From Takashimella koratensis (lineage: Eukaryota > Basidiomycota > Tremellomycetes > Trichosporonales > Tetragoniomycetaceae): a stretch of DNA of 64,000 bases. This document shows, in pieces, positions 24,201 to 61,254 of this stretch; position 1 is the stretch's first letter; every line of letters starts with the position of its first letter. The position numbers and the translations under genes were made by a program. Under the pieces are notes generated by a model. It was not told the DNA's origin and made no database searches. It was given only the letters and a program-made list of their open reading frames with translations. The DNA lies in the NCBI GenBank assembly GCA_003116875.1, contig BCKT01000001.1, positions 2,103,486 to 2,167,485 of the forward strand, read 5' to 3'.

Positions 24201-27160
24201 TCTCCGCGATCGAAAGAGGCCGAGCGGAACGATCCAGAGGCTAGAGAGCCGGTAAGCTAACAATGGTCCGAGAACTAGCTAACATTTGACAGTCCGAGTC
24301 TTCAGGCTCTCCCGAAGACGAGCGAGGCTCACCGTGGTCTCGAAAACGTTCAGCACAACGCTTGTCGCAAAACTCGTATCTGCCTCGAGTCTGGACCGAC
24401 CTGTCCAAAACCTCCCCTCCTTCTCCCACCAAAACAAGCAGCGTCACCATCCACCCTTCTCGCCCGCTACCCAGTCTGCACACGACTCCACACGCGTCGA
24501 CACCCCCAGAGTACGAATATGCTCTTCCCTCCGAAGATGTCTCGAACGACGTGGGGATGCCGGACGTACCGCAGTCCGCGCATACATTGCAGATGTCGGG
24601 CTCGTTTGGTCCTTCCCCTGTTGCCGACCGAGGCGAGTTGGCGGGACTCCCGGACACCCAACAGATACGGGTCCATGAAAGTCCTACTATCCTCAGTGGA
24701 GTGGAATCCAAGGTCTTTGTCTTTGAGGACCAAGATAGCGAAGCGCCACTGTCGATCGACGACCACCCGGTCCCTGTTCGTTCAAAGTTACCCGCCAACG
24801 ATCGGGAAAAGTTGAAACAGTGGATCTTCCCACTCTCACCAGAGAAACGACCTCTCGTGCATAGAGCCCAGTCTATGCCTGAGGATAGAGGCGAGGAGCT
24901 GCGGGTGCCCAACGTGCGGGCCAGTCCGTCGAAATCGGAGCCGGGTCTTCCGCCCCTCAACCCGGAGGAAATCGACGCTGGCATCAAACGACCACAGGAG
25001 GTGGGCGGCTTCGTCGACACGCTTCGTCTAAACGACCACGAGCACCCAGTCGACCCGGAACCTCGGCTTCACCTCAGCCCTCCTCGCTCAGACACCGGCG
25101 TCGCCTCGACTCGAATCGATTACCCTACCTCTCCCGGCGGCTTGAGAGTCTATCCTTTTGGGGAAGACACCAACCGAACTTCACTCGAGCTCGCATCCAG
25201 GCAAACCTCCGTCGAATTCCCACTTCGTCAAGAACCTCGGCGTATCCTCTCCATTGTGAATGACACCGACCACCTCACGCCTCAGTCCGCGAACACGGAA
25301 TCAGCGACGACAACGGGACCCCGCGCGCACAACTCGTCTTCGTCGTTGGCAACTACGAACGCCGCGTACCCACAGACGAACGGAAGTCAGGTGATCGTGT
25401 TGGATGAGCTGGTGCACTCGTTGGAGCACCAGGTGGAGGCGCTAAAAGAGGCGAATGCGTGGTTGGAGTCGGAGAGTAGGAGGCAAGTGTATGAGTTGTC
25501 AGAGAGGATGCAAGCTACCGAGGAGGTCATTCACAGCGCTGTCAAAGGTGAGATTACAGAAGACATGATTTCGATCCGTGAGCTCACGTAAAACCTGATT
25601 TCTCAGAGGCCTTACAGGGCATGGACAACCACCGCTCGGAAACCCTTCTCGGGCAAGTGGCCACGATTCTGGAAGAGCACACCAGCCTCCTGCATACTAT
25701 TCAAGAAACCACCGAGGCACCCGTGACAGCTGTCGATTCGGACGACAGTACACGGGTAGACGACCTATTCAAAGCCCTCTTGTCGGGCCAACACGCCATG
25801 ATGGAGCGATTCAGCGAGATGAATGCGGATTCAGAGGTTCAGCAAGATCTCCGAGCTGCGACGTCGGCGCTGCTGGAGGCTCGGGAAGACGCGCATGCAA
25901 GGGAAGCGGTGGCGGATGATCTGGGGAGTAGGTTGGAGGGTATGAGGAAGAGGCTGGATGAGAGTGAAGTGGCGAGGAGAAAGTTAGAGTCGGAGTTCGA
26001 AGTGGTGAAGGGGCAGAGAGATGTGGCGGAGGGGCAGCGGGAAAGTGAGAGGGAGGGTGGGGAACGAGAGGCGAAACGAAGTGAGGAGATGCGAGAGGAG
26101 GTTAAGGAATTGAGGAAGGTGATGGAGGAGCTAAGAGCGAGTATGGGGGAGAAAGACAAGAAGTTGGAGGAGATGCGCTGGCTCGTAGAGGCGACGAAGG
26201 GAGAAGCGGACGCGTCCAAGCGCGTGTTAGAAGTTGCGACGGCAGAGGTGAGTCATTCTTTCCTGGACGCTTGTCATGATGGTTCCCAAAGTCTTACCCT
26301 AATCCACATTACCATCCTCAGCGCGATGAAGCGAGAGCTTCTCTCTCTGCCCAGAAGAACGCCGAGGCAGATGGCGAAGCTCAAATTCGAATGGCGTTCC
26401 AACAAACAGTGTTGGAACAGCTTGCGAAACTCGACGTTGGTGGCAAGACGGGTGACGAGGAGCAGATTCGCGAGCTTAAGAATGAACTGCACGCTGTTCG
26501 GTCCAAGGTAGGTCAAACAAGCAGCTGCCATAGTGGTGCGTTGAGGTGAAGAGCTGACACTTTGGCCACAGTATGAGGTATCACAAGAGCTTCGCAAGAA
26601 ATCTGAACTCGAAATATCGTCTATGAAAGCCACATCTCAGCTCCGCCAAGCCGAGATCTCCGCCCAGCTCGACAAGGAGCAGAGTCTCCGAGCTGCCGAA
26701 GCGAAACGAGCGGACGCCGCTGAGGAGCGAGAGACGGAGTTGAAGAAGAAGGTTGAGGAAATGGAGAGGCAGATGGCGAAAGTCAGGGAAGAGCGAGACG
26801 CCTGGCAGATTGCAGCCAACGAGAGGCAGACTTGGGCCAAGATGGCTGAGGTGAGTCGCGTTGTCTGCTGAAGCACCTGAAAGCATTGTGTTGAGTGGTT
26901 TTGATCTGACGTATTTTACACAGGTCCGACTAGCCGCAGTTCATCAGGAGAACTATTACTGGCGGCAATTCGCACTCGATGCCGATCGGTCAAGGATGAG
27001 AACGTACTTAAAGACCAAACCGTTCTCGCCGGATCCGGCGGGAGATGGGGGAGCCAATGGATCCGGGAATGGGCACGTTAATGGACAAAATGGAGGAGCG
27101 GGCGGGGCAGTGAAGCTGAATGAGGACGAGGATGGGGGGACGTGGTGGGGCGCAAAGTAA
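21241..27160 (+). CDS. Upa2-like PAM2/coiled-coil scaffold protein of mRNA transport
   Basis: Eight exons give about 1,800 residues. Start MSVPPYIWSSAPSFDPTARP, end DGGTWWGAK. Residues 1-600 are disordered, with an RGR/GRDGRDR patch in exon 2. Between about 623 and 915 lie five PAM2-like motifs; the best reads LNPKAQVFKP, close to the PAM2 consensus that binds the MLLE domain of poly(A)-binding protein. The C-terminal third (from about 1340) is long coiled coil rich in Glu/Lys/Arg/Leu (for example EMRWLVEATKGEADASKRVL). The last residues carry a WW pair between glycines. Several PAM2 motifs, coiled coils and a terminal GWW-like motif are the layout of Ustilago maydis Upa2, a dimeric scaffold of endosomal mRNP transport with Rrm4 and Pab1. 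Orthology is inferred from architecture, not alignment. Confidence 0.75.
23250..24128 (+). other. Cluster of five PAM2-like motifs in the Upa2-like protein
   Basis: Positions and cores: 23250 LRADATAFRP, 23505 LKPTAAAFVP, 23712 LRATAEPFRP (followed at once by TAKPFTP), 23811 LRPTAPVFTP, 24099 LNPKAQVFKP. All share Leu, Ala and Phe-x-Pro at fixed spacing (L-x-x-x-A-x-x-F-x-P). The last is a textbook PAM2; the others have Arg/Lys in place of Asn and may bind MLLE more weakly or bind other MLLE proteins. Confidence 0.8.
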
Positions 27161-27915
27161 GGGCTCACCTCCCCAATCGAGGTGGTGAGAAGTTGAGAAG
27201 ATCAAAGGAGAGAGGCGCGTGAAGCGGGAAAGTGTCGGTTTGAACGATCTACATGACCTCAAGATTAGGCCATTGTCACGACTGTCTGTCTACTGAACGA
27301 GAAGAGAAGCGAAAAATGTCGATTTAAAGTGACGAAGAGCTACGATCATAACGATGTCCATATACGACCTTGATGAAGAAACAATGTCCAGTGTTGCACT
27401 TAGTCCCCGACCAGGCCGTGCATTAAGCTCATTCAGAAAACAGAAAGCCCAGAACAGAGTAAGCATGCGGGGCAGAGGTTGGCAGCGCTCCACCTTGCAG
27501 GCAATAGGTTGGGGACCATTGTGAAATCCTTTCAGCCGTCATGACGGTGATTGTTACTGTGAGGCCATAACAAAGCTGCTAGCGTGTTACACATGCGTCA
27601 CTCCAATCATGCTGTTTCACTAGCAGGTGAGCGACACTCTGAGTAAAATTGAAGGTGGGCCCAGACTTGCATACCCTTTGAGGCATACTGCGGACGTTTC
27701 AACTAGTTGTTTCACATTTGCTGACTAGATGCTCTTTTCATAATCAATTCGTGAGCTGCAAAGTGGACATGTCAACGCTTGCCACTCGGCCTTTCCATAC
27801 TCGGCATCAACTTTTCCGTATTATATAATGCTGAATGAAAGATGGGAAAAGGTGAGCTTTCGTAGATCAGTCCAATCACTTACTTGAATACGAACATCAA
27901 CAGCATCAGTTCATC
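27161..27915. other. Intergenic region before the tandem small-gene array
   Basis: 755 bp between the Upa2-like stop and the first array gene. No coding signal. A TATATAAT-like box lies near 27821. The sequence looks more AT-rich than the flanking genes. Confidence 0.5.
27820..27830 (+). promoter_or_regulatory. TATA-like box upstream of array gene 1
   Basis: TTATATAATG about 95 bp upstream of the array gene 1 start codon. Similar A/T boxes precede array genes 3 and 5, while the intron-rich neighbours show none that I can see. Confidence 0.4.
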
Positions 27916-28323
27916 ATGGCGACTCCCTCTCAGAACTCGAGCCTTCCCACTACAACTCGGTCCAATATGACCACCATCAACGTTGGCTTGACCAATGGGA
28001 TGGTATTTGTGTCCACTGATGCCTCCGTGCCAGATGACCCAAAATCTCAAGAATTGTTCTCAATCATCACCGCAGCTTTGGTCGAGGAATTTTCTGCCGG
28101 GGAAACCAACAAAGGCATCCTTAAGGCAAATCTCACCATGGATGAGCTAGAGAAGACAGTCTCTGACTCGGTCAACTACCTTGGGTATCCGATACGGAGG
28201 ATCGAGGGTCCGCAAGCTGACAGCTTGGCCCTTTCATTATCTATGGAGACTGGTGATCATAAGCCTGCAGGGGTATGGATGCGAACGACCAACTTTTCCT
28301 TGGACAATGGAATGCCTGGATGA
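27916..28323 (+). CDS. Array gene 1: small protein of an unrecognised tandem family
   Basis: A single-exon ORF of 135 residues starting MATPSQNSSLPTTTRSNM and ending LDNGMPG. It shares the array pattern: a first strand (TTINVGLTNGMVFVST), an acidic helix start (PDDPKSQELFSIITAALVEE), a second helix (NLTMDELEKTVSDSVNYLG) and a late strand (YPIRRIEGPQADSLALSL), then GVWMRTTNFSLD. I recognise no known domain. No signal peptide or membrane helix. It is the most diverged member, lacking the Gly-Trp-Ser motif of genes 2-4. Its 3' flank (28907-28927) resembles that of array gene 4. Confidence 0.6.
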   Translation: MATPSQNSSLPTTTRSNMTTINVGLTNGMVFVSTDASVPDDPKSQELFSIITAALVEEFSAGETNKGILKANLTMDELEKTVSDSVNYLGYPIRRIEGPQADSLALSLSMETGDHKPAGVWMRTTNFSLDNGMPG

Positions 28324-29239
28324 ACTATTGTCCTCCAGTCACGCCTTGCTGGTTCGGCCAGCCTGTTTAGTTGTTCACCCCCATACATAGCCTTTCTATC
28401 AACAACCCTATCAAAAATCCCTGCTTTATCTTTTAATAGCATTATTCATCAATCCCTCATATTAGGATTCAACCGGACCCTTTGCTCTTTCTCTCATGGA
28501 CACGAGCACTTTCATTGTCCTCAATATTCCTTGTTATGGGTCTGGGAACGCGTTGAATCCACTACGAGAAACGTTTTGCTTGGGCCCGCTGCATATTGTT
28601 GTGAGACTCAAAGGATCAAAGCATGGATCAAAGCAAAACGATAGCTGAACACTCCGCTCTTTTGAGTCTCCGCCAATCCAATAATGTTTTACCGGAGAGT
28701 GAAGCTGCTCAGTATGTTACTATCGATAGTGCAGTCGCTTTGACGGGGTTACGGGTAACTTTCATTAAGGCAGGATAGCTTGCAAGTCCTTTTCCTCCAT
28801 TACCTTATCCTACTCCTATCTCCACCGCACGCGATAAGACATAGCTCTGATGAAGTTGTCCAAACTAGCTGAGGAGACCTTCGAGATAACCTTAGCTGAC
28901 ATTCCCATGCTGAGAAGGGATGTCATCCGTTGATCTAAGCCTTGTCGAACCCTTTATCCTTTCTACCCCTCTCCACGGCCTACTACCGCAATCCTCATGC
29001 TCCGTCATGAAAGGTGATTACAGGGTTCGGACGTGCTATGCACTCCACAATGAAAGGAGGTCTTCCACCCCTGACCTTTACCAAAGAACTCAGCAAACTA
29101 CCCGGACGACATGAGAGAGAGCCACATTTCTTCCCTCCCCCGTCCCCTCTTTAACCGTCCATCCACCCTCACCCCCGAACCTCAGACGGCATTGGACACT
29201 GGACTTTCGGTGCCGTATAGAACGAACACTCGTACCACC
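28324..29239. other. Intergenic region between array genes 1 and 2
   Basis: No supported gene. Part of 28790-28930 resembles 32600-32730 (3' of array gene 4), including GCTGAGAAGGGATGTCATC versus GCTAAGAAAGGATGTTATC, so the flank seems duplicated along with the genes. The upstream extension of the gene 2 frame (from 29111) is open but probably leader. Confidence 0.45.
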
Positions 29240-29725
29240 ATGAGTATCCAGTCAAACTACTCGGACGTCGATACTCTGAACACCGCACTCGAGTCTCTAG
29301 GTGTTGAGGAGGCCAAGACTTTGAAAGTCCCTGCAGCGAATGACGAGGATGCCGACACCTTGATTGCCGAAAGCCTTTCGGTCGCCTCCGATAACTCAGG
29401 TCCTGACAACACGGAACGAAAATACCTCCTCGTTGGTACCGGCTGGAGCGACGTTCTCGAGCGCAACCACGTCTTTCTCCAACAGTCCGGCGCGGATATC
29501 GATGACAACGAATGGGAGCAAATCTCGACCAAGATGGCGGAATTCGCAGCAGAGACGGTGTGGAAAGCGGATGCTGTTTCGGTGCTCTACCTGAACCAAG
29601 CGATCGCGTTTTGCAAAGAGAACTTTGGCCCTTCCGGTTACTCAGTTTACAGGATGGACGACAGCGACAACTTGCAGATGCTTGAAGAGAAAGAACGACG
29701 GGTCAAAATGTCCTCGACGCCTTAA
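29240..29725 (+). CDS. Array gene 2: small protein of an unrecognised tandem family
   Basis: A single-exon gene of 161 residues. I chose the ATG at 29240 (CCACCATGAG context), although the frame is open from an ATG at 29111. Start MSIQSNYSDVDTLNTALESL, with an acidic disordered N terminus, then the core: KYLLVGTGWSDVLERNHVFL, an acidic linker (GADIDDNEWEQISTKMAEFA), a long helix and GPSGYSVYRMDDSDNLQMLE. The Gly-Trp-Ser and Gly-Tyr-Ser-x-x-x-Met-Asp positions align with array genes 3-5. Probably soluble and intracellular (no signal peptide). Function unknown. Confidence 0.68.
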   Translation: MSIQSNYSDVDTLNTALESLGVEEAKTLKVPAANDEDADTLIAESLSVASDNSGPDNTERKYLLVGTGWSDVLERNHVFLQQSGADIDDNEWEQISTKMAEFAAETVWKADAVSVLYLNQAIAFCKENFGPSGYSVYRMDDSDNLQMLEEKERRVKMSSTP

Positions 29726-30194
29726 CCTTTGCTCCACCTGGGTCTTCAGACTCCCTATCTCCAGTGCTTGAGCTTTCTTTCACCCGTTTTGCTCGCAGTT
29801 ACTTACAATTTTGTACAATTCCGATCACCCTACCCCTCGCTTTTTCACTCCCTCGACACACACAGAGTCTAGCTCTAGTTCACTGCCGTTTTTCCTCTGC
29901 AGTTTTCTCCCTGGTCCTGATTTGCACTTTCTTGTTGTCTTGAATGTACGTATGTTAATGCCCGCTTGAGCCCCCAAGTCACCAGTACATCAAGCAGTGC
30001 GTTTAAGGCAGGTCACCGTCCTCTCAGAACACATTTCATCTTCTTCTTAACATTTATGACTAGGTCGAACTTTCTCAACGCTAGCTGCCATGTTCAGGTC
30101 CCTCACCCTTTCGCGCCACCCAAATTAACAACCTCAGAGCGTTCTCCTTCGGCAGAACCCCCACGGCTTGCTCCATTAGTTGCCCCCTTCCCTC

Positions 30195-30430
30195 AAAATC
30201 GCCGCAGGTCCATTCATGTGATCCGCGCAAGGCAGCGGTGGTCTACATGAAAGGGTTGACAGCGACGAGGGGTCTAGAGCTTTGTTCTCTGACCAAACCC
30301 ACAGAGCCCGTTAGGATCCTTTCAGCACCACCGCTCTACAATCTGCAACAGTTCATCATGAAAAGAGGTCTCAGACTTTTTGGGGAAGTTCAATCAAACT
30401 CAGCAGTGCACTCGAAGCCACATAAAAAGC
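30195..30430 (+). repeat. Duplicated upstream block, copy 1 (5' of array gene 3)
   Basis: Shares with 31465-31690 the ordered segments CATGTGA(T/C)CGCGCAAG, ATGAAAGGTTGA, GGGTCT-GCTTTGTT, GGATCCTTTCA and GAAAAGAGGTCTCAG(A/G)CTTTT, then GGCAGTG / AGCAGTG. This is direct evidence that genes 3 and 4 arose from a duplicated unit including promoter DNA. Confidence 0.75.
30421..30430 (+). promoter_or_regulatory. TATA-like box upstream of array gene 3
   Basis: CATAAAAAGC about 125 bp upstream of the gene 3 start codon, at the end of the block shared with gene 4. Confidence 0.35.
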
Positions 30431-30548
30431 GGAAAATACTCCCCCATCCGTTCCCCACTTTCCCAACCACCCATTTCAGCTCACCGTCCATACCCCTGAC
30501 ACTAGTCGACATCGAGATTGGTAACCAACCTAAACGACACGATTGGAA

Positions 30549-30968
30549 ATGGCCGACACGAGAAGCGACATGGACGTCGTCCCGCCCCCCAGCGAGTCAA
30601 AGGAGACCGAATCGCCCACGCCGAACAGCAAATCCACGATTTCCGTTTGTGTCGCATGGAGCAAGCACGACTGCGGGTATACGTGTGTTTTTCGGGAAGG
30701 CTCATCCAAAGACATGGAGGACGCCGAGGAGTGGAAGAAGTTCGACGAAGCAGTCAGAACGTTTGCGACGATGCCCGCCACCCAACCGGAGGCCGAGTCA
30801 GGCGCTCACCAGAAGAAGGGGATTGAGCTCTTTACCCAACTCTTCCAGTCTTCTGGATACTCGATCATTCCGATGGATGCAGCCCAACTCAGTAAGAGCC
30901 TTGTAGAGTGGGAAGGACAGGGAGGCTACGAGACGGACGTGATTTTTCGAAAAGATTCGGAAATCTGA
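30549..30968 (+). CDS. Array gene 3: small protein of an unrecognised tandem family
   Basis: A single-exon gene of 139 residues from ATG 30549 (GGAAATGGCC context); an in-frame TTG at 30543 is not a plausible start. Start MADTRSDMDVVPPPSESKET, a Pro/Ser/Glu-rich N terminus, then the core: STISVCVAWSKHDCGYTCVF, an acidic turn (SSKDMEDAEEWKKFDEAVRT), a helix (GIELFTQLFQSSGYSIIPMD) and a final helix/strand (AAQLSKSLVEWEGQGG, then ETDVIFRKD). It aligns well with the C terminus of array gene 4 if that gene is read through its frameshift. No known domain recognised; probably soluble and intracellular. Confidence 0.68.
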   Translation: MADTRSDMDVVPPPSESKETESPTPNSKSTISVCVAWSKHDCGYTCVFREGSSKDMEDAEEWKKFDEAVRTFATMPATQPEAESGAHQKKGIELFTQLFQSSGYSIIPMDAAQLSKSLVEWEGQGGYETDVIFRKDSEI

Positions 30969-31801
30969 TACAATCCGGATACATTCTGTCCAAGCCGAAA
31001 GCCTGGACGTTCGGCGACGAATCCCTCTCGCAACGATGTCTGTTTTGCACCGCTTTTTCACCAGACCGCAGACCTCCTCTGACACATATTAATAGGTCCA
31101 GAGTTTCGTTCAACACCTCTTTGGTTTCCACCTTGTACATTTTCGATATTCACTTTGACACCTTCTCCCTTTTTCTCATGGCTTGCCTTCCTGTATATGA
31201 CCGTCTGATGCTTTCCGTCCACAGCATACCTGGATGTGCAGTACGGCGAATCCCGTGACATGAACACGGCTCTGTGCGAATTTGAGCTTGCTTTGAAATA
31301 CCACTGGTTTTCACTGAGCATGCTCATGCCCAACACCTTCTGGCACTCTAACCAACCTTACTCAGCAGAGACGTCTGTCTTCCAATAGCCCCCCCGATGC
31401 AGCCCTTTGACCCTTCCTTGTGACCATCCCTTCCGACTCGCGCTTATCCACGGCAGTTTTGAATCCTCTCATGTGACTCGCGCAAGCTAGCTGAGACGAG
31501 CATGAAAGGTTGAACATAAGAAAGGGTCTTGTGCTTTGTTACACCACCAAATTTGTAGATGCAATGGATCCTTTCACTATCACAGTCTCACAGTCTCCAA
31601 GCTTTCAGGGTGAAAAGAGGTCTCAGGCTTTTGGGGGGCAAATTTGAACTCGGCAGTGAACAGACTCAAGACAGCGTAGAAAGCGATTTTTCTCCCTCGT
31701 CAACACCCAGTTTACCGACACAACACCCTTCCGGTCGCCGCTGCTCGACACCGAACCGCTCATACAACCCACCATCATCACGCACAACACGTCCCAACAC
31801 C
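30969..31801. other. Intergenic region between array genes 3 and 4
   Basis: No supported gene. Contains the second copy of the duplicated upstream block (about 31465-31690) and the leader of array gene 4. Confidence 0.45.
31465..31690 (+). repeat. Duplicated upstream block, copy 2 (5' of array gene 4)
   Basis: Partner of 30195-30430; the strongest local match is GAAAAGAGGTCTCAGGCTTTT at about 31612-31632. The open frame across it (from 31559) is not conserved in copy 1, so it is treated as leader. Confidence 0.75.
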
Positions 31802-32466
31802 ATGGACATCGACACTTCGCTCGCCTCGGACGCCACCGGCTCGACCGAAACCAAAAGCAAAGTCCTCTTCTCTGCGGGCTGGAGTGAGGAAGGAGGTGGA
31901 TATCTCTTTTTCGACCTGGAAGGCGATCAGTCCCCCGAAGCCCGCGACGCTCTCGAGGTAATCGCCAATTCGTCCACCCATTTCGCGGATGAGAAACGCA
32001 CCTTCAACAGGAGATTCGTGAAATCAGAGGAGCTCAGAGCCATAATCAAGGAGAAAGCGAGCGAAGCCGCCAAACCTTTCGGCCTGGAAGTTTCAGAGAT
32101 CCCGTTGAGAGGCTTGCTCCCATTCTGAACAGGTGGATCGAGAAAAAAGCATACCTCAATTCCGGGCCGGTCACGTTGTTCGCCACTGAGACGGTCGACG
32201 AGAAACCCATCTCTGCGTCTGTCCGCAACTCCCCCGCCGCCGAGACTGTCGACCAGAAACCCAACATTGCGGCTGTTGAAGGAGAGCCGGAGCATACCAC
32301 TGACGGCGCTGAGACTCTCAAAGTGGAGCCGACCACTACCACTGTCGACGTCCCGGATCTCAGCAAAATTTCGTCTTCCTTCGGGGAGTTCGACGCCGGT
32401 CGCGATGTCGCCGCGATCGCCAAAGCCTTCGGCTTCCCGAACACAGAATCGTTTCTTTCGCTTTGA
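31802..32466 (+). CDS. Array gene 4: tandem-family member with an apparent 1-nt frameshift
   Basis: ATG at 31802 (ACACCATGGAC). Start MDIDTSLASDATGSTETKSK, then the core KVLFSAGWSEEGGGYLFFDL, an acidic helix region and a long helix (EELRAIIKEKASEAAKPFG). In frame one the protein stops at 32128 just after LEVSEIPLRG. From about 32104 another frame stays open to 32466 and reads ERLAPILNRWIEKKAY, then VTLFATETVDEKPI, an acidic/Pro/Thr tail and NTESFLSL. The second frame continues the family pattern of gene 3, so one base seems missing in the CCC run near 32101. It is either a real break (truncated 108-residue protein) or a sequence error. No intron explains the frame change. Function unknown. 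Confidence 0.6.
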
Positions 32467-32971
32467 GAAATCCTTGATTCCCATTACCACCCTTTTCACG
32501 CATTGTACTCTCTCCAAGCCCCGTAAGACCTGTCGACACATATCACGCGTTTCATTTTACCATAGTTCCCAGCCTTCCGCGCGACGGCTTGGACTTTCAT
32601 TCCTCACCAGCGTGTCTTACTCTTATCTCCATTTGAGGCGATATTTAACCTCCTCTTCTGACAGATCTGAGCGAGTTGGAGTTTCCTCAAGTCGGCTCAA
32701 TGTTTCCCAAGCTAAGAAAGGATGTTATCATAACTGCGTACTTGTTGAGGACTTGAATCTTTCCACCACTTTCCCTGAGCTACTATAAGAGCCCGTCAAA
32801 GCCGATGGGAAAGGCGGTATCAGAGCTATGTGTTTCAGAATCGAGCTCCGCAAAAAAACCCCTAGAGGGGATAAATAGTTGAACCATTCCCCCTCCCTCT
32901 TCATTCTTACCTCACACCATCAACTCGACTTCGCCGACCTTGGATACTGACCTTTTTGACCAGCTCAAGCC
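32467..32971. other. Intergenic region between array genes 4 and 5
   Basis: No supported gene. Part of the first half resembles the 3' flank of array gene 1. A GATAAATAG box at 32871 lies about 100 bp upstream of gene 5. Confidence 0.45.
32871..32879 (+). promoter_or_regulatory. TATA-like box upstream of array gene 5
   Basis: GATAAATAG, about 100 bp upstream of the gene 5 start codon. Confidence 0.4.
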
Positions 32972-33550
32972 ATGTTGAACGACAAGAACCACAAATCGGA
33001 GGCTCTGATGGAAATCCTGTCAAACAATCCCAAAATTGACCCAATCTTCTTCTGCACCACCATGAACGAGCTCAATCTTCCTGACTGGGCTCTCAACTCC
33101 TCCGTCGGCGGCTCCGACACCTCCGAAAGAGATCCCAGTACCTTTTGCCACACAGCCAGCACCGCTCCCTACAAGTCCGGCAGCTCCCACCAGAACACCA
33201 TTTTGGTCGCGGCCGGTCATGATGAATCAATCGGCTTTTACCTTTGGCTGACATCAAAAACCAAGAATCTCGTCGAGGACCCCAAGAAACTCGCCGAAAC
33301 AATCGACGCGATCAACTCCATCTACACTCACAATCTCCAGCTGGATTTGACATTCGCCGAACTCGCATCCGACGGTTTCCAGGAAAGATACGTCCGGCAA
33401 CTGCAGAAATTCGATTGCGGCGACTTTCAAATCGAAGCCATGGACGCCGAAACGTTCAAGAAGTACAGGGATCAGAAGAAGAAGCGAGAGCCGAGCAAGG
33501 TCGACAGTCGCGCTCTCAACGAGTCCCAGTCAGGATTTTCAGGCGCTTGA
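32972..33550 (+). CDS. Array gene 5: small protein of an unrecognised tandem family
   Basis: A single-exon gene of 192 residues, start MLNDKNHKSEALMEILSNNP, end ESQSGFSGA. The N-terminal 70 residues differ from the other copies (PIFFCTTMNELNLPDW). The core follows the array pattern: NTILVAAGHDESIGFYLWLT, an acidic helix (LVEDPKKLAETIDAINSIYT), a second helix (QERYVRQLQKFDCGD) and FQIEAMDAETFKKYRDQKKK with the conserved Met-Asp. Gly-His-Asp replaces Gly-Trp-Ser. Basic C-terminal tail. No signal peptide or membrane helix. It ends 194 bp before the stop of the convergent TBC gene. Confidence 0.66.
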   Translation: MLNDKNHKSEALMEILSNNPKIDPIFFCTTMNELNLPDWALNSSVGGSDTSERDPSTFCHTASTAPYKSGSSHQNTILVAAGHDESIGFYLWLTSKTKNLVEDPKKLAETIDAINSIYTHNLQLDLTFAELASDGFQERYVRQLQKFDCGDFQIEAMDAETFKKYRDQKKKREPSKVDSRALNESQSGFSGA

Positions 33551-33744
33551 CCAATGCTTTCGTCTGCGGCACCTCTTTCCTCTCTCCCTGGATGGAGATG
33601 ATTTTCAGACAGTTTCTTTTGTCTGCCGACAGCTCGGAATGCACTCATCGTATTTTCTCACTCTCCTTTTTGTCTTCTCGGATGACTAGAGAATCAGGGG
33701 TCGCTTCACTGTGTGGCACTAAGTGCATCAACTCCAATACTTTA

Positions 33745-36132
33745 CTACAACAGAGCCGCCTGCGCTTTCCCTTCGTCCACCAACCTACTCCACTCTAGAC
33801 GCCACTCGCCAATCCTCAACTTGACCTCAGACTGCCACAACATCTTCCTGATCCAGCGCATCATCTTGTCCTCGTCCTCGATCACGTAGAAGCTCGACAA
33901 GAGAGATAGGATCGATTCGAAATTAGCAATCTTTGCTGATAAGAGGTCTGTGATGGGACTGGTTAGCCGGGGTCACAACAGCTGAGGTCTTGGTACCAGA
34001 ACTCACCTTTGAAGGCCCAGACGATAGCTACCGTCGCCAAGATCATGACATCGTAGCCGTCGAGGAACATGGCGTCCCAAAGCCGAAGCTGGAAATCGAA
34101 CGGCACAGTGTTGACAAATAGTGTAATGTAGATTTTCGCACCCCAAGATGACGAGCTGATCATGTTCTTTTGCTGCAGGATTTGGCGTCAGCTTGGCACT
34201 GAGCATGAGACGGAAAGCCTCAATGTAGTACTCACGAAGGATTGGTAGACATCTGGCATGAGGTACTCGATGAGTCGCTCTTGAACGTAGAACGTCTCTA
34301 AAAGCCCTGGGAACCCAGGAGCGAAGATTCCGTGCATGTCGTACACGTCGTGGATCCTTACTAATAGCGCGTAGGCTCGCTGGAGAACGACAATTTTGAT
34401 CAGCCACTGTTTTGTGTAGGCTGACTGAGCCGTGGTCCGTGGTAGCACTCACCTCTGGCTCAAAGTAACATAGCAAGGTCGCAGCGATTGAGCCCATGCC
34501 CTGGCAGTATCCGCATGTCTCGCAGAGCTGAGAGAACGAATGCAGGACATGGAAGAGGGATCGTTGGCCCTGTCCGAACCGAGTTTGGAATAGGACGTGT
34601 CCGCTGATTGTCCGTGGCACGTCAAGGTCGATCTGGACGTCAGATGTCGAGGGCAGGTCAATGCGGCGCTGTTGCGGGCAGCATCAGCTGTATGAAACGA
34701 TCATTTTAGCTTCAGATACTCACAAGATACTCTTCCTGTAGCTGTTCGACGCTGCGGTACTTGTCTTTGCCCTTGGCCAAAGCTCGCTCATCCGCCAATG
34801 TCCACCACGCTGCCATCCTCCACCGATCAGGAACACCCTTGTACACTCTTCTCGCATGTTTCGCTCCCTCGGTGCCTTGCGACCACTTCCAGTCCGTCAC
34901 GTTCCCACCCGTATCTCTTCGCTTGACCGACATCATTTTCATCCACTTGCCCACGCGCTCCTCTTCCTTCCTCTTCGCACGGCGGATGGCTTCTCCATCG
35001 ATACGCTCGGGAGGGGGACGTGCTGACGGTCCCGCCTCGCCCCCGCCAGCGACAACCCCCGCGGGCGAGGGCTGAGCGGGTTCTTTCCCTTTGAGAGGTG
35101 ATGTGGAGGGCAGTTTTGGGATTTTCTGAAACGGAGCAGACGGGACCTGAGCCAGTCGAGACTCCTGGCGGTTGCGAAGAGGCTCATCGACGAAACCGTA
35201 TCGGTCAAGGCGAGAGCGGAAACCAAGCTCTTGCTCGCTGAGCTCTCCCGGGTCGCTAGGCAGCATGAGTGTCTTGCGTGCACCGTTGGCGGAACCACCA
35301 CGGGTCCGCTCGACGCCTTCGTCCCATCCGTCACCGTACACTCCTTCCACCTCGAGCCGAGCGTCTGGGACATAATGGTAAACAATGGCTCGTTTTTGCG
35401 TAATGAAGGTGAATCAGCAACCACGACCGACTCACAAGTTGATCGAACAAAGAACGCGTCCGCCTCCTCGCCAGGGTATTGGGACGACGCAGCGATAGAC
35501 AGCTGGCTCGTGCTCGCCGACGAGGTGTTGGTACCTGTCCCAGTCCCTGACGGGCGGGGGCTTAGGCGCGCGATGCTAGGGTGCACGGGTGAGCTCGCGG
35601 TGGACGAGGTCATGGTTGAGTTGGCAAGATCGTAGGAGACTGAGCGACGGTCCGGTGTCTTGGCTACCGAGGCGGAGGATGTGACTCGAATCGGTGGTGT
35701 AGACACGCCCCCTCCCACTGACCCTCCTCCACTGCCTGCGCTTAGACGGGGGTTGCCTGGCATACGCTGTGTGAGGCTGGCAGCAGGGCCCTCCCACGAG
35801 GTTGGCGACTGCGACTCGTCCTCCAAGCGCATCTCCTCGATCGTCCCTTTGCTGACTGGTAGGTGGCCATTGCCGTTGGAATTTAGCTTTACGATTCGAG
35901 GGGGAGCTGGGAGGGCGCTGGATCTGTTGGGAAGGGCACGTTCCGCGTGGACCGTGTCGGCTGTTGCATGTGAAGCTGTCGTGGAGGCCCAGCTCTCCCT
36001 GCCGGTATTGTAAAGGTCAAAAATGCCTTCAGCCTGATTGGCACTCTCGACCGTGGATTCGCGGTAAGGGCTCCTGGGAGCTGGGGCGATTGACATCCGC
36101 TGAACGTCGGACAGCACCTCAGAGTCGTCCAT
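33745..36132 (-). CDS. TBC-domain Rab GTPase-activating protein
   Basis: Minus-strand gene with about seven exons. Start MDDSEVLSDVQRMSIAPAPR at 36132; C terminus about DEGKAQAALL at 33745. A disordered Ser/Pro/Gly-rich N terminus of about 400 residues precedes the TBC domain. The domain starts HARRVYKGVPDRWRMAAWWT, has the arginine finger in IDLDVPRTI and the glutamine finger in YCQGMGSIAATLLCYFEPE, then FAPGFPGLLETFYVQERLIE, then TLFVNTVPFDFQLRLWDAMF and LDGYDVMILATVAIVWAFKD. Both catalytic residues are present, so it should stimulate GTP hydrolysis by a Rab in vesicle traffic. The Rab partner is unknown. The last exon (33745 to about 33950) is convergent with array gene 5. Confidence 0.85.
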
Positions 36133-52695: not shown

Positions 52696-53052
52696 TTAAT
52701 CCAGTTTGCGCCTCCTTACAGGTGTTTTGACAGTCTCGACCTTACTCCTTGTCCTCCCTGCGACACTCTCTCCATTCCCATCACCTCCACCTCCCTCCCC
52801 GTCATCCATCTTTCTCTCCACCCCACCCGCACCTTCACCACCTGCCGCCGCGATCACAGGAACCGGTACTCCCTTCTTTATCGCGCCCAGCCCCGCCGCG
52901 GCCGCCGGAGTTGGGGTCCCGGGATACCGTTGGCGCAGTGATCGAAAGTGTCGATACATGCAATAAGTGACAGGGAAGAGGGCGATGAAGAGCGCAAGGG
53001 AGAGGTACTCGACTTGGGCGTCGGTCAGGTCGTGTTGAAGTCGCGATCGCAT
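52696..53052 (-). CDS. Small single-pass membrane protein (118 aa), uncharacterised
   Basis: A single-exon ORF on the minus strand from a true ATG (53052): MRSRLQHDLTDAQVEYLSLA, then a hydrophobic helix LALFIALFPVTYCMYRHF and a basic flank FRSLRQRYPGTPTPAAAAG. The rest is a Gly/Glu/Lys tail ending VETVKTPVRRRKLD. The helix with charged flanks suggests a real type I/III membrane protein. A 7-bp tandem repeat and the element shared with the promoter at 60.3 kb lie upstream. No family recognised. Confidence 0.5.
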   Translation of the reverse strand: MRSRLQHDLTDAQVEYLSLALFIALFPVTYCMYRHFRSLRQRYPGTPTPAAAAGLGAIKKGVPVPVIAAAGGEGAGGVERKMDDGEGGGGDGNGESVAGRTRSKVETVKTPVRRRKLD

Positions 53053-53096
53053 GGGGGGAGGGTCGAGGGGGGCTGGAGGTCGGGAAGGTTGAGGAG

Positions 53097-53180
53097 GTTG
53101 GTAGTTGGTAGTTGGTAGTTGGTAGTTGGTAGTTGGTAGTTGGAAGTTGAAAGTTTGTAGTTGGTAGTTGGTAGTTGGTG
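53097..53180. repeat. 7-bp minisatellite, GTAGTTG, about 11 copies
   Basis: Repeated GTAGTTG units with a few variants (GAAGTTG, AAAGTTT). Because the unit is 7 bp, a stop-free frame on the minus strand reads as a heptapeptide repeat, but no start codon supports coding. It lies 45-130 bp upstream of the small membrane gene start codon. Confidence 0.9.
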
Positions 53181-53232
53181 TTTGGGATGGGTGATGTAGA
53201 AGAGCAGAGTGCAATGTCAACAGTGACGTCGA

Positions 53233-53264
53233 GTTGCGGAGATAATCGGTTTCGGGATTTTGCC
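53233..53264 (-). promoter_or_regulatory. Shared promoter element, copy 1
   Basis: The minus-strand segment GGCAAAAT...ACCGATTATCTCCGCAAC matches 60285-60315 over about 31 bp with one gap. The core AACCGATTATCTCCGNAAC is identical except for one base. It lies about 180 bp upstream of the small membrane gene start codon. Confidence 0.55.
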
Positions 53265-53831
53265 ACCCACCCAGAACGAATCCCACCCAGGCTGGGCCGA
53301 AAAACCGAAGCCTCGATCCTCGCTGACCAACATTTCCACCACCAATCAACTTGTCTAACCACCTCATCGTCCATCATCCATCCCCATCTCTCACCTCTCT
53401 TCTCTCACCTCTCACCCCCCTCGTCCTATTTGCCAAACCCGACTCACCCCTGTCCAACTTCCTACGACCCGTCCACCCACGTTCTCCGGCCGACGGACGT
53501 ACCCTCCACCTTGGTGTGATTTCCAACTTGAGCGACCAATGAGCTTGGCGGTGTGACAAATCCCCCCATCACCCCCTGTCTGTTTTCCGACCCGACATTA
53601 CCCGCACCAGTCATCCACTCTTTCGCTTCTTCACACTCCATCATCCCACCTTTCTTACCTCCTCCTTCTTCACATCTAGACACTTAAACGTATACACATC
53701 CCTTCAACCCTTCATTGCACCAACTCCCCCACTTTCGCGACCTACGACCTCTGGACGTCTGTCATTCGACCGGCCCATAACTCCTTCCATCACACCATAC
53801 TCCACCACCCACCCTCCACTCACCACCCACC

Positions 53832-55299: not shown

Positions 55300-57590
55300 A
55301 TGTCGACACCTAAAATCTCGTTCAAAGTGCCCCCCGTCGCTGAAGACGAAGCGACGGGAGGCGACGTGACGACCCACGACCTCTCAACTGCCCCGGGCAA
55401 AGACCGCGAGCGCGAACCTTACTATGGCGGCGATATCGCAAATATCAGTGAGGCCGGGCAGGCGGCTTCGGCTATGGACGTGGATGCGAGCAATGGAGGT
55501 GGGTCGGGTGTTCCTTCTTCAGCCTGAACGTGTTGGATTAGCATCATGTTATGATCTGCTGTGCACATCATCGCGTCGACTTGGGATTCCATTCCTCACT
55601 ACCCATCCATCCAGCTTGTCGCTGACACCTTCTTGCAGAGGCATCAACAGCACCAAAAGGCGAGACTTCGGGTGGGGCGGATGCACCCGAAGTCGGCGGA
55701 GAGGGCGCGACGCCCGCTGCCGAGACCCCCGCCGTTGACGCCGGCGACGACCGACCTTCTGCCTCTGAGCTTCACGCGCTCGCAACGACCTACCTCGCCT
55801 CCCAAACCCACCCACTCATCATCCCTTCTTACTCTTCCTGGTTCTCCCTCTCCACTATTCACGCTATCGAGCGTAAATCCCTCCCCGAGTTCTTCTCTAA
55901 ACGTAACCGATCCAAAACCCCGGCCATCTACAAGGACTACCGCGATTTCATGATCAACACGTACCGACTCAACCCGGGGGAGTATCTAACAGTGACGGCT
56001 TGCAGGCGGAACCTGGCAGGAGACGTCGGCGCGATCATGCGTGTCCATGGGTTTTTGGAGCAGTGGGGGTTGATCAATTACCAGATTGACCCAGAGACGA
56101 GACCGGCGCCTCTTGGACCACCTTTCACGGGTCACTTCCGCGTCACCCTCGACACACCCAAGGGATTGAGCAACCTCCACCCTGGATCGCGACCCAACGC
56201 CGCCTCCATCTCCGCTGCTGCAGGTGCAAACGGCGCCGCGGCCAACGGGACCAGCGGATCCGCGACCAAGCCCACCCTCGACCTCGGAAAGATTATCTAC
56301 CAGTCGACTTCACGCGTTACCAAGCCCGTCACCGAGTCTGATGCGACCAAGATCTCTCTCGCAGCTTCTGCCGCCACCGCCAACGGTGCCGCCCCGCGCC
56401 CAGCCACTTACGCTTGCGAGACTTGCGGCACCGATTGCACGCGGACGCGATACCACTCGATGAAGGATGGCGAGTACACTATCTGCCCGTCATGTTTCGT
56501 CTCTGGCCGATTCCCATCCACCATGTTCTCTGGAGACTTTGTCCGACTCGACGAAGAGCTGTTCAAGCATGGATCGTCGGGAGCCGGTCCCGATTGGTCA
56601 GACCAGGAGACGCTGCTTCTCCTCGAAGGTGTGGAGATGTACGATGACGATTGGAACGCGGTCGCGCTTCACGTCGCGACTCGTAGCAAAGAACAGTGTA
56701 TCGCCAAGTTCCTCCAGCTTCCGATTGAGGACAATTACTTGACAGTGGATAACGCGGCGGATCTCGGGCCGTTGCGGTACCAGGCGGGAATGAATGGGCT
56801 GCCGTTCGAGGGCGCAGAGAACCCAGTGATGAGCGTGGTCACGTTCCTCGCGAACGCGGTCGGACCGGCGGTCGCAGCGTCTGCGGCACAGAGCGCGCTG
56901 GGCGAGCTAGCGAAGGGGTTGAAGCGGAAGCGGGACGCGGGGGATGCCAAGGCGGCAGCGGAGAGTGAGAAGAAGGCCAAGGGCGGGGAAGATGAGGTCA
57001 AGGCGGAGGAAGCGGAGGCTGCGGTTGCAGGTGAGGGCGAGAAAGAATCGGCATTCACGACAGCAGCGGTCGACGGCGATACCGAAATGGCATCGACACC
57101 TGCTGCCGAGCCAAGCAGCGCAATTATCGGCGAGACCAACGGTGACGATACTCTCGCACCTTCCCATACTTCTCTCGAGCGCGCTGCCTCCCTCGCTCTC
57201 GGTGCAGCAGCAGCCAAGGCCTCCGCCCTTGCTCAACACGAAGACTCTCGTCTCTCCCAACTCGTTTCCCGTCTCGTCGCTGCTCAAACGCGGAAGATTG
57301 AACTCAAGCTGGCCATGTTCGAGCGGCTCGAAGACGCCCTGGAGGAAGAGAAACGAAAAGTCGAGTTGGGAAGGCAACAGTTGTTCAAGGATAGGGTCAG
57401 TGTCCAGAGGCAGTTGGAGAGTGTGGAGGCACTGGTGAAGAAGGCCAAGGAGGAGCCGGAGAAAGTGGACAAGGAGGAGGTGGAGAAAGTGAAAGAGATG
57501 GGAGGAACGAGTACAGCTCAGAATGTGCAAGAGGTGGTAGGGGAGGTTGAAGTACCCGAGAAGGAAGGAGCAAGCGTGCAGGCGCTGTAG
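55300..57590 (+). CDS. SWI/SNF-RSC complex subunit of the SWI3/RSC8/SMARCC family
   Basis: Start MSTPKISFKVPPVAEDEATG, end KEGASVQAL. Domains in order: SWIRM at about residues 110-220 (THPLIIPSYSSWFSLSTIHA, KTPAIYKDYRDFMINTYRLN, TVTACRRNLAGDVGAIMRVH, FLEQWGLINYQIDPE), a ZZ-like zinc finger (ACETCGTDCTRTRYHSMKDG, then CPSCF) and SANT (WSDQETLLLLEGVEMYDDDW, VALHVATRSKEQCIAKFLQL). An Ala-rich section and an acidic/basic region precede a C-terminal leucine-zipper-like coiled coil (RKIELKLAMFERLEDALEEE). This is the core scaffold of SWI/SNF or RSC chromatin remodelers. With the ZZ finger it looks closest to Rsc8/Swi3-type subunits. Two exons. Confidence 0.92.
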
Positions 57591-57871: not shown

Positions 57872-60198
57872 TTAGGAAGAACCGCTCACTGGAGGGGGCG
57901 CGGGGGTCGGTTGAATCTCACGGACGAGGTCGCGCGTCGGCCCGTGGACTTTCATCAACGTTGCGAGAGCGAATGTTGCGTGTTCGAGCAAGTCTAAACC
58001 TGTTAGCTAGTCCACTTCCATTCCAGCCATTCTCATCCCCAGCCAGAACCAGAACCAGAACCAGTAGTACTCACATTCGTCCCTATTATCCCTCTGACAC
58101 ATCTTCAATACCTCTTCTACACCTCTCTCCCTAAACACGATCCCCGCCGTCTCTTCGTCCCCGTCGACTAGGACAGTAAGGAGTGTCACCAGTGTGCTCT
58201 TCATCCTGCTGAACGCTCGAGTATCCACCTCTAAACCCGCCGGGAGGTCGGTGATCCTTGCACCGCCGGGGTGTTGGACAGGAAGATTTTGAGTCAGGGA
58301 GGTGGTGAATGGTGCTTCGGCGGGTAGGAATTTGATCATTGCGCGAAGAAGAACTAGGATGGTGTTAAGACCTGAGAGATCATGGGGATTCATGTCCACT
58401 CACCAACGATAGTCTTGACGATCCCTCGAGGCCCATCTTCACGCATTCTGTTCAACATTTCCTCATCCCCTCCAGGTTTCGCACTCCCCTGACCCTCCTC
58501 TTCCTCATCCACATCCATCTCGCCGTCCACTCCCTCTTTCCCCGCCTGCCTACCCTTCCCTCCCTTCCTCACCTCTTGCGCACGCAGATCCACCACCTCC
58601 CCTATCGTCGTCAATATCTCCGCAACCAGCACGACCGCCTCGAACACGCTCGGCAAGGTCGCCACGTTTCCTTCCACATTCTCCACCATCGTCATCGCTC
58701 TCTCTGCCAGTTCGTTGAATTCGGTAATGAGGAAAATGTCGGCGCTGGGACAAGGTGTGGAGAGAAGTGGAGAGGAAGATTTGCGGAGGACGTGGAAGCG
58801 GTCGATCATCTTGAACAGCATGATACGGCTAGGTAAGACTCCATCGGAACCTGAGGTCTGCTCAGATCGCTTGAATGCAGAATTGAGGATCGAGTGGAGG
58901 TTGGAGGAGATGTACATCATCGCATATTCGATACCGGTGTCCCGGACCGTTTCGTTTTCGGGTCCCGCCTCGTCGATGCGCACAAGGCAGCGCCGGATCC
59001 ATTCAAGGCCAACGGGAGATTTAGCTATCCGCGACCTAGAGGAGAGTCTTGTTAGTCTTTGGGTTCAAGCGTGAGAAAAAGTAGAGTAAATGCGTGGGCA
59101 TAAGGTCAACTCACAGCCATCGGGAAGGGTCAGACTGAGCCATGACGATGAAGAGGTGGAAAGTGACGTTGATCGTAGTCATATCAGGCGACCACAATAA
59201 CCGTCTTCAGCAACTACCGTCAGCCCTGTTTGCCTATTCTTTCCCTATCTTCATGTAGCCCAGGCCTGAAGTTGAGCCAGATACTCACTCAAAGATGTTG
59301 TCTTCGCGAGATCCGGACAAGTACGCGTCCAGCGCCTTCTCTACTCGCTCGTTCACGAAGCTCACCGGCTGTCGCTGGCTGCTCGAGGTTCCGTTCTCGT
59401 CGCTATTCGAGAACCGAGGTGGGGTGAAAAGGTTGTACAGGATCTTCACGAGAGCCGCACCGAGCGCTTGGTCTGTGATACGTTAGGTCAGAGTCACCAA
59501 TGAGCCAGTGAAAGCTTTGATCGCGAACAATCGAGTCAACGTACATGCTCTGTCTTCAAGGTCTAATCCACCAGTGACTCGGTATATCATCTTCCTCAAC
59601 GCTCGTTCGTGTTGACTATCATAACAAATCAGCCCAACCCCAACCCCAAGGTCAAACCTCCCCTCTCTCTCTTAGGTCGTCAAGTTGCACTCACAATACT
59701 GCACTTTGGTACTCTGCCCTTCCGGAAGCCAAAACATTCAGCTCAACCTTGGCTACTCGCGTCGCCAATCGGACGATATTGGACTTGATTCCGTCGTCGC
59801 AGGTAGCTGAACTGAGGAGGTTCCAGATATCTCCAAACATCTCAAATGCGTCTTTCCCATGACTCGATCCGTAGGCGTTGACACTCTTGACCACATCCTG
59901 GGAGCTGAGTCAAGACAGATCAGCGTCCGACATAGAAGTTGAATCTCCTAGGAAAGATTGAAAAGAGGATTGGGGGGGAAGGGAAAGCTGAGTTGCCTCC
60001 CACTGCTCACTTCATGGTCACATCACTAGCGATGGCCTTGGAGAGGTCGGTGAGGTATTGGATAATCTGATCCAGACGATTCCGGTCAGCGAGTAAACCG
60101 ATAAACGAGGCGCTACTTTGCGTCAGGTTCCACCAGAGGTCTCCGATCCGATCTCCGGATACCTCGACGACGTCAATGTCGGGCGAGGCAGCGACCAT
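57872..60198 (-). CDS. Ataxin-10-like (Atx10/Ctr86 domain) protein
   Basis: A minus-strand gene of about seven or eight exons. Start MVAASPDIDVVEVSGDRIGD at 60198 with an ideal CACCATGG context; an upstream in-frame TTG at 60258 was rejected. Helical repeat protein: GDLWWNLTQSSASFIGLLAD, FEMFGDIWNLLSSATCDDGI, KSNIVRLATRVAKVELNVLA, then a central part with a Gly/Glu/Lys insert. The C-terminal Atx10 domain reads FSRMKSTLVTLLTVLVDGDE, FRERGVEEVLKMCQRDNRDE, LDLLEHATFALATLMKVHGP. In animals ataxin-10 acts in neuronal survival and cytokinesis; the fungal role is unclear. The last exon ends REIQPTPAPPPVSGSS. Internal splice sites are partly uncertain. Confidence 0.78.
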
Positions 60199-60284
60199 GG
60201 TGTGCGCCGAGGATCTGGGTGAGGATGAGGATGAGGAGTAGGGTTTCACAAAACTCAATTTTTCGGCTTAGCCCTCGTGTGTAC

Positions 60285-60316
60285 GGCAAAACGCGCAACC
60301 GATTATCTCCGGAACT
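60285..60316 (+). promoter_or_regulatory. Shared promoter element, copy 2 (between divergent ATX10-like and gene B)
   Basis: GGCAAAACGCGCAACCGATTATCTCCGGAAC, written here in two parts only for orientation: GGCAAAACGCGC then AACCGATTATCTCCGGAAC. It matches 53233-53264 (minus strand). It lies 74 bp upstream of coiled-coil gene B and 87 bp upstream of the divergent ATX10-like start. Confidence 0.55.
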
Positions 60317-60389
60317 CACATTCACTCTATCGCTCATCTTCCCTCTCATCCTCATCTCTATTCTGTGTACATCTCCCTCTGTGTACAAG

Positions 60390-61254
60390 ATGACGCCAAC
60401 TACTTTATCTCCAGAACAGCTCACGACTGCCGTCATGGCCCTCAACGCGCACGTGGTCTCCCTCAACGCGCACGTCGTCTCCCTCAACGCGGACGTGGTC
60501 TCCCTCAACGCGGACGTGGTCTCCCTCAACGCCGACGTTTCTCAACTCAAGGGAGACGTCCGGAAGCTCCAGCTTGACTACGAGCGCTCCATCCTGGCCC
60601 GACAAGTCCTCTTCTGGCACAGTGTGGTTCATTTCGCCGGCTCAATGTTTAAAGATCCGGTGATGAAGCGACCAAAGATCGAGCCTAAGAAGAAGGGCAA
60701 GGGCAAGGGCAAGGAGGACAAGGACGAAGAGGCCAAACCTTTGAATCGCGTAAGTGCATCTCTGAGCTGACCACCGTGACAAAAGTGTTGACTGTCCATA
60801 GTCGATCCAGGATTTGAACGCCTGCGTTCTACAAGGAAGTGGTTCCACTCTCTTCAAAAAGCGAGTCGCAAGCGAAGGCCAGGGCTTCGAAACAAGCATT
60901 CGCGTGAACATGAACCGGATCCTCTTGGAAGCGCTTTCTGGCGACCGCAGCGACTTGGCTCACCCGGAGAAGTCCCCCTCGGCGTTGATTCGCTTAGGGT
61001 TAGAGATTGAGCTTGTGTTAGCTCAACAGATGGAACGAGGCGGTAAAGTTGGCGACCTCGAGACGTGTCTACACAGGGTCAGAGATGACGTGGACACAAT
61101 TCTTCGTCTCCTGGGCAAGGACGAGGCCACATCTGCCGTGGAATCAATGGTGGCGACTTTTCGGAACGACTGGATCCCAAACGAGATTCAATTGATCCTG
61201 CATACAAATAAAGGCTTGATTGGAACCATCGTTTACCCGGCGCTGGAAAATTGA
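60390..61254 (+). CDS. Coiled-coil gene B: paralog of the gene at 36727-37572, family not recognised
   Basis: Two exons, 60390-60749 and 60802-61254, phase-0 intron, 270 residues. Start MTPTTLSPEQLTTAVMALNA, followed by five heptads encoded by 21-bp DNA copies, then LQLDYERSILARQVLFWHSV and HFAGSMFKDP, a strongly basic hinge (KRPKIEPKKKGKGKGKEDKD) that looks like an NLS, and the exon-2 domain: GDRSDLAHPEKSPSALIRLG, LEIELVLAQQMERGG, DVDTILRLLGKDEATSAVES and IPNEIQLILHTNKGLIG. Motif order, spacing and intron position equal those of gene A, so the two are paralogs. No signal peptide or membrane helix. Its stop is 98 bp before the Vip1/Asp1 start. Confidence 0.8.
60441..60545 (+). repeat. 21-bp coding tandem repeat (5 copies)
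   Basis: Five 21-bp units with consensus CTCAACGCGSACGTGGTCTCC, each encoding one heptad (LNAxVVS). The copies are near-identical, so the array probably varies in number between strains. This expansion is independent of the one in gene A: different sequence, same unit length. Confidence 0.92.

Follow-up and report, generated by a model that had tools for sequence, protein, structure and literature searches.

A tandem array of small single-exon genes with duplicated upstream DNA and strongly diverged proteins in Takashimella koratensis

The window analysed here is a 64,000-nucleotide stretch of the Takashimella koratensis genome (contig BCKT01000001.1, positions 2103486-2167485; the genome searched comprises 25.1 Mb in 24 contigs), and its subject is an array of five short genes on the plus strand, which we call g1 to g5. 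A sequence-only reading of this DNA had described five plus-strand open reading frames (ORFs) beginning with ATG, and all five are present in the ORF listing: g1 at 27916-28323 (135 residues, acidic, in the array by position only), g2 at 29240-29725 (161 residues, domain core at about 29402-29722), g3 at 30549-30968 (139 residues, core at about 30621-30965), g4 at 31802-32128 (108 residues, reaching by inspection from strand 1 of the domain to about strand 3) and g5 at 32972-33550 (192 residues, core at about 33179-33490). The starts used for g2 and g4 are internal ATGs, the first ATGs of their frames lying at 29111 and 31559, respectively. The genes were also said to lack introns, which was borne out by a simple consensus scan that found no GTRNGN...CTRAY...YAG signal within any of the five. 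That their neighbours are intron-rich held for those in which canonical introns can be read by eye, such as GTGAGT...ACAG at 26851-26923 in the upstream neighbour; it may fail for the gene of a SWIRM/ZZ/Myb chromatin-remodelling subunit at 55626-57587, a single 654-codon open frame that forms a large intron-free gene part near intron-bearing neighbours. The array region is, as had been proposed, somewhat richer in A+T: seven 2-kb windows across 27001-35000 have a G+C content of 0.481-0.524, compared with 0.53-0.59 in 48 of the 56 others.

The composition of the array genes is coding-like. Under a codon model for which five pieces of neighbouring genes served as the training set, with scores in bits per codon, the called frame has the top overall score of the six frames in every gene (0.096 for g1, the weakest, 0.356 for g2, 0.217 for g3, 0.271 for g4 and 0.283 for g5), and a piece of the SWIRM gene, itself in the training set, scores 0.320. 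The synonymous-codon part of the score is best in the called frame for g2 and g5 only, and the coding signal of g1, g3 and g4 is therefore mainly one of amino-acid composition. Frames of 108-192 codons would be open by chance in local intergenic-like DNA with a probability of 0.001-0.02 per ORF, uncorrected for the number of frames tried. A 273-codon stop-free stretch in another frame (30085-30903) overlaps the upstream region and coding sequence of g3; it looks like chance because its sliding coding scores are poor.

Genes g2 to g5 are one paralogous family that arose by duplication, a conclusion from sequence comparison that follows from their duplicated flanks together with the similarity of the g2 and g3 proteins. 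Upstream DNA was compared pair by pair against 300 dinucleotide shuffles and 183-184 real control segments. The region upstream of g3 (29838-30548, plus strand) is a duplicate of that upstream of g4 (31051-31801, plus strand), with a score of 161 (z 32.5) reached by none of the 300 shuffles and none of 183 controls, and this alignment runs unbroken into both coding sequences (29838-30707 with 31051-31933). Likewise, the region upstream of g2 (28778-29207, plus strand) is a duplicate of that upstream of g5 (32587-32955, plus strand; score 73, z 10.6, 0/300 shuffles, 0/184 controls). A likely further match joins g2 and g3 (3/300 shuffles, 0/183 control segments), so that the earlier claim that flanks were duplicated along with genes applies to these three pairs and not to g1, which has no clear shared upstream DNA. 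The remaining seven upstream pairs were unsupported, the best being g2/g4 (9/300 shuffles, 18/183 controls) and g1/g3 (16/300, 10/183).

Kinship shows mainly in this upstream DNA, the paralogous proteins being just 17-25% identical to g3. We compared the domain cores of all ten pairs with 1000 shuffles under three scoring schemes, two local and one global. The pattern that had been proposed as common to all five is statistically secure for g2 and g3, whose similarity was reached by none of the 1000 shuffles in any scheme (z 9.3 and 10.2 local, 6.4 global); that of g3 and g4 is marginal (23, 24 and 39 shuffles), and each of the other eight pairs is not significant (at least 71/1000). Profiles tested by leaving members out (16 runs, with 2000 shuffles) gave a similarly graded answer to the expectation that the five would match one another in hidden Markov model or profile searches. 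The profile that best recovered g5 was that of g2, g3 and g4, at 6/2000 shuffles and 0/332 control frames, as against 37, 42, 114 and 1610 of 2000 with four other training sets; g4 was reached or exceeded by 17, 25, 63 and 566 of 2000, and g1 found no support in any of its six runs (392-1196 of 2000). Membership of g2 to g5 is thus carried by the g2-g3 proteins, by the upstream DNA of g3-g4 and g2-g5 and by the g5 profile, with the g2/g5 pair joined to the g3/g4 pair through g2-g3. From pair tests, flanks and profiles we therefore count four members, g2 to g5, and one candidate, g1.

Could g1 nevertheless belong to the family as a genuine fifth member, its sequence having diverged past recognition? 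We regard this as possible, though on balance doubtful. The gene adjoins the array on the same strand and is of like size and acidity, and an independent AlphaFold model from its single sequence shows the order b-b-a-(b)-a-b (b, strand; a, helix) that is predicted for the family. That model is of low confidence, with a predicted local distance difference test score (pLDDT) of 61, the other four models reaching only 43-50, and it continues into two further strands, its C-terminus thus being predicted as strands and not as a helix. Against membership stands the comparison of g1 with g2 to g5, in which protein, profile and upstream similarity were all non-significant, and the upstream region of g1 lacks the shared element described next.

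The duplicated upstream DNA of g3 and g4 contains a 72-nucleotide block that is 75% identical without gaps (30314-30385 with 31566-31637), so part of it appears to have been kept, bearing in mind that such repeats are chosen for their likeness. Within it lies a short element, GAAARGMGGTMTCAG, a pattern derived from the array copies themselves. It has exactly three exact matches in the 25.1 Mb genome, all on the plus strand of the array, at 30360-30374 (-189 from the g3 start), 31612-31626 (-190 from the g4 start) and 32809-32823 (-163 from the g5 start), compared with one match for the reversed control. A divergent, weaker copy lies at 29052-29066, which is -188 relative to the start of g2 (29240) and in the register seen in g3 and g4. 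When the upstream regions were searched for a common 15-letter word, the best shared word fell at -190 in g3, -189 in g2, -191 in g4 and -164 in g5, and none of 100 shuffles reached it. We take the element to be a duplicated block and a possible shared control site, and a block shared in this way suggests co-regulation, without pointing to which signal.

AlphaFold, given the g2 core in alignment with g3 and g5, predicts the fold confidently (pLDDT 86.8; predicted template modelling score, pTM, 0.76), and the fold agrees with the strand-strand-helix-helix-strand pattern that had been read from the sequence. The model describes an alpha/beta domain of about 100 residues, a predicted strand-hairpin, helix, helix and strand followed by a helix or strand; the N-termini, where a classically secreted effector would carry a signal peptide, are hydrophilic in all five proteins by inspection of their translations. 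The earlier statement that no domain could be recognised stands. Pfam, NCBIfam and PHROGs gave no match at a curated or significant threshold, the sub-threshold rows being Fis1_TPR_N (E 0.051, g3), RAB3GAP2_N (E 0.18, g5) and phrog_6598 (E 0.15, g4); a PDB sequence search found no relative, viral structures gave no match at E <= 0.001, and structure matches were at the level of a common arrangement only. Candidates for the closest known systems include the C-terminal domain of bacterial RNase J, together with a small RNase E domain of similar build; the metallo-beta-lactamase/beta-CASP nuclease of RNase J has no Pfam counterpart in these ORFs of 108-192 residues. The kinetoplastid protein Q4D6Q6 (PDB 6xyb) shows 7% identity across unrelated organisms, in a comparison with the g1 model of pLDDT 61, and is absent from the 50 matches shown for the g2 model.

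Among 5.8 billion proteins, a search that requires shared words of five residues found no relatives of g3 (7 candidates) or of the five-sequence profile (2969 candidates). For comparison, of the 7995 candidates scored for the SWIRM/Myb protein, 3877 matched at E <= 1e-20 and 120 were listed; the best listed are 70-72% identical, and those named include Cutaneotrichosporon oleaginosum (71%), Saitozyma podzolica (70%), Cryptococcus gattii (70%) and Kwoniella species (up to 69%). Judged by this one conserved chromatin protein, the organism is a tremellomycete, and the nearest database proteome would be distant, at about 72% identity. Because of that distance, and because the genome's own paralogs escape one another's searches, the absence of matches is weak evidence of orphan status.

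Two observations bear on how the proteins have been changing. The first concerns g4, which is overlapped by a second plus-strand open frame (31993-32466) that continues for 111 codons past the g4 stop at 32128, a length with a chance of about 0.019. This frame is coding-like (0.306 over 32101-32463, the strand's other frames scoring -0.312 and -0.227) and encodes an acidic tail with internal repeats (at 32181-32345) that has no Pfam match, is found as a single copy in the genome and resembles the C-termini of g3, g2 and g5 no more than shuffles do (962, 442 and 1607 of 3000). No intron was found under the simple consensus, and g4 is, to judge from its sequence, probably longer, with its frame interrupted or read with an assembly error. 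The second is the state of the third codon positions, at which 0.35 of the aligned codons agree in both g2/g3 and g3/g4. This does not exceed the level of codon-shuffled controls (0.32 and 0.31, as high in 93/500 and 123/500), which means that silent sites are close to saturation. The proteins of g2 and g3 nevertheless retain a clear likeness, which suggests amino-acid constraint. The proposal of a lineage-specific, still-changing family thus keeps four members, on the strength of duplicated flanks, saturated third positions, the lack of database relatives and a predicted g2 fold that matches the pattern; it does not extend to five, g1 being unsupported, and restriction to one lineage would be no more than probable.

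What might these genes do, and why do their proteins differ so much? The reading we prefer, with a probability of about 0.42, is that of a tandem, probably taxonomically restricted tremellomycete family whose domain binds partners inside the cell, whose members are co-expressed through an inherited upstream block and whose proteins diverge with their partners. Each gene would be a single exon for a small, acidic, soluble protein in which a hydrophilic, probably disordered N-terminus precedes the alpha/beta domain. This domain would bind another protein within the cell, acting as a small partner-binding or oligomerising module and not an enzyme, a role favoured because of small size, acidity, hydrophilic N-termini and the lack of enzyme resemblance. 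The copies would be turned on together by the inherited promoter block, and their fast protein change would mirror the divergence of the bound partners. Several points weigh against this. Partner binding is something we infer solely from size, charge and the lack of enzyme resemblance. Nine of the ten protein pairs are marginal or within chance, and a single fold for g4 and g5 therefore depends on descent and weak profiles. Once g4 is set aside, the element matches of g2 and g5 are, without positional register, at chance level (53/100 shuffles), and that the element is so rare may be no more than a sign of duplicated DNA. In g1, g3 and g4, synonymous codon choice alone shows no preference for the called frame, and the g4 frame change suggests that at least one copy may be decaying. 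A contrast between codon positions, considered as a sign of protein constraint, was withdrawn since codon-shuffled controls show it equally, and saturation precludes a direct test for positive selection.

Some of these points would be expected if the copies were relaxed, decaying duplicates, left by gene birth and death and now of little function, whose proteins differ because nothing holds them. The seemingly interrupted g4 frame, the low identity to g3 and a codon-position contrast that shows no constraint beyond shuffled controls all fit such an account, which we nonetheless hold to be unlikely: in overall coding score each called frame still ranks first of six, the frames are open over lengths with the small uncorrected chances given above, g2-g3 similarity has outlasted saturated third positions, and the g2 fold is confidently predicted. 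Marginally less probable still would be an arms-race family of variable recognition or antagonist proteins (for self/non-self recognition, against mycoviruses or against some other microbe) in which promoters are conserved and proteins diversify. Such a family could explain a tandem array, extreme protein divergence beside recognisable duplicated flanks, possible gene decay and the lack of detectable relatives; yet Pfam recognises no domain at all and so none typical of defence proteins, toxins or effectors. A further possibility, that intronless genes were recently acquired by horizontal transfer from a bacterium or virus and then duplicated in tandem, would account for single exons in an intron-bearing genome and for the slightly lower G+C. 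We consider it very improbable, given that there is no match in the 5.8 billion proteins, none of useful E-value in PHROGs or NCBIfam (the best PHROG row being that of g4) and none among viral structures at the threshold used.

Elsewhere in the window, an array of about 12 copies of the heptamer GTTGGTA (53097-53179) lies within a 225-codon minus-strand open stretch (52699-53373), and about five copies of a 21-nucleotide tandem repeat (60439-60560) lie within an open frame (60105-60767), possibly as a coding minisatellite. A histidine phosphatase (branch 2) domain protein (63071-64000) reaches the window end.

Orphan tandem gene families of fungi consist of short genes in tandem copies that lack recognisable relatives and change fast. 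The array is like them in all of these respects, and unlike them in that its flanks prove paralogy where protein similarity is gone and in that one member has a confident fold. It is conceivable, at rather long odds, that an undescribed fungal domain family has here diversified in a partner-driven, arms-race-like way, keeping its upstream control block as the proteins changed too far for sequence search to link the paralogs. One study (PMC7028367) raises it as an open question whether sequence divergence or non-coding DNA is the source of orphan genes. In this array, divergence is directly visible within one genome, in genes that are duplicates by their flanks and whose proteins a genome search leaves unlinked. 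The array also provides a small, uncharacterised domain that is confidently modelled in one member, as well as a putative local cis element.
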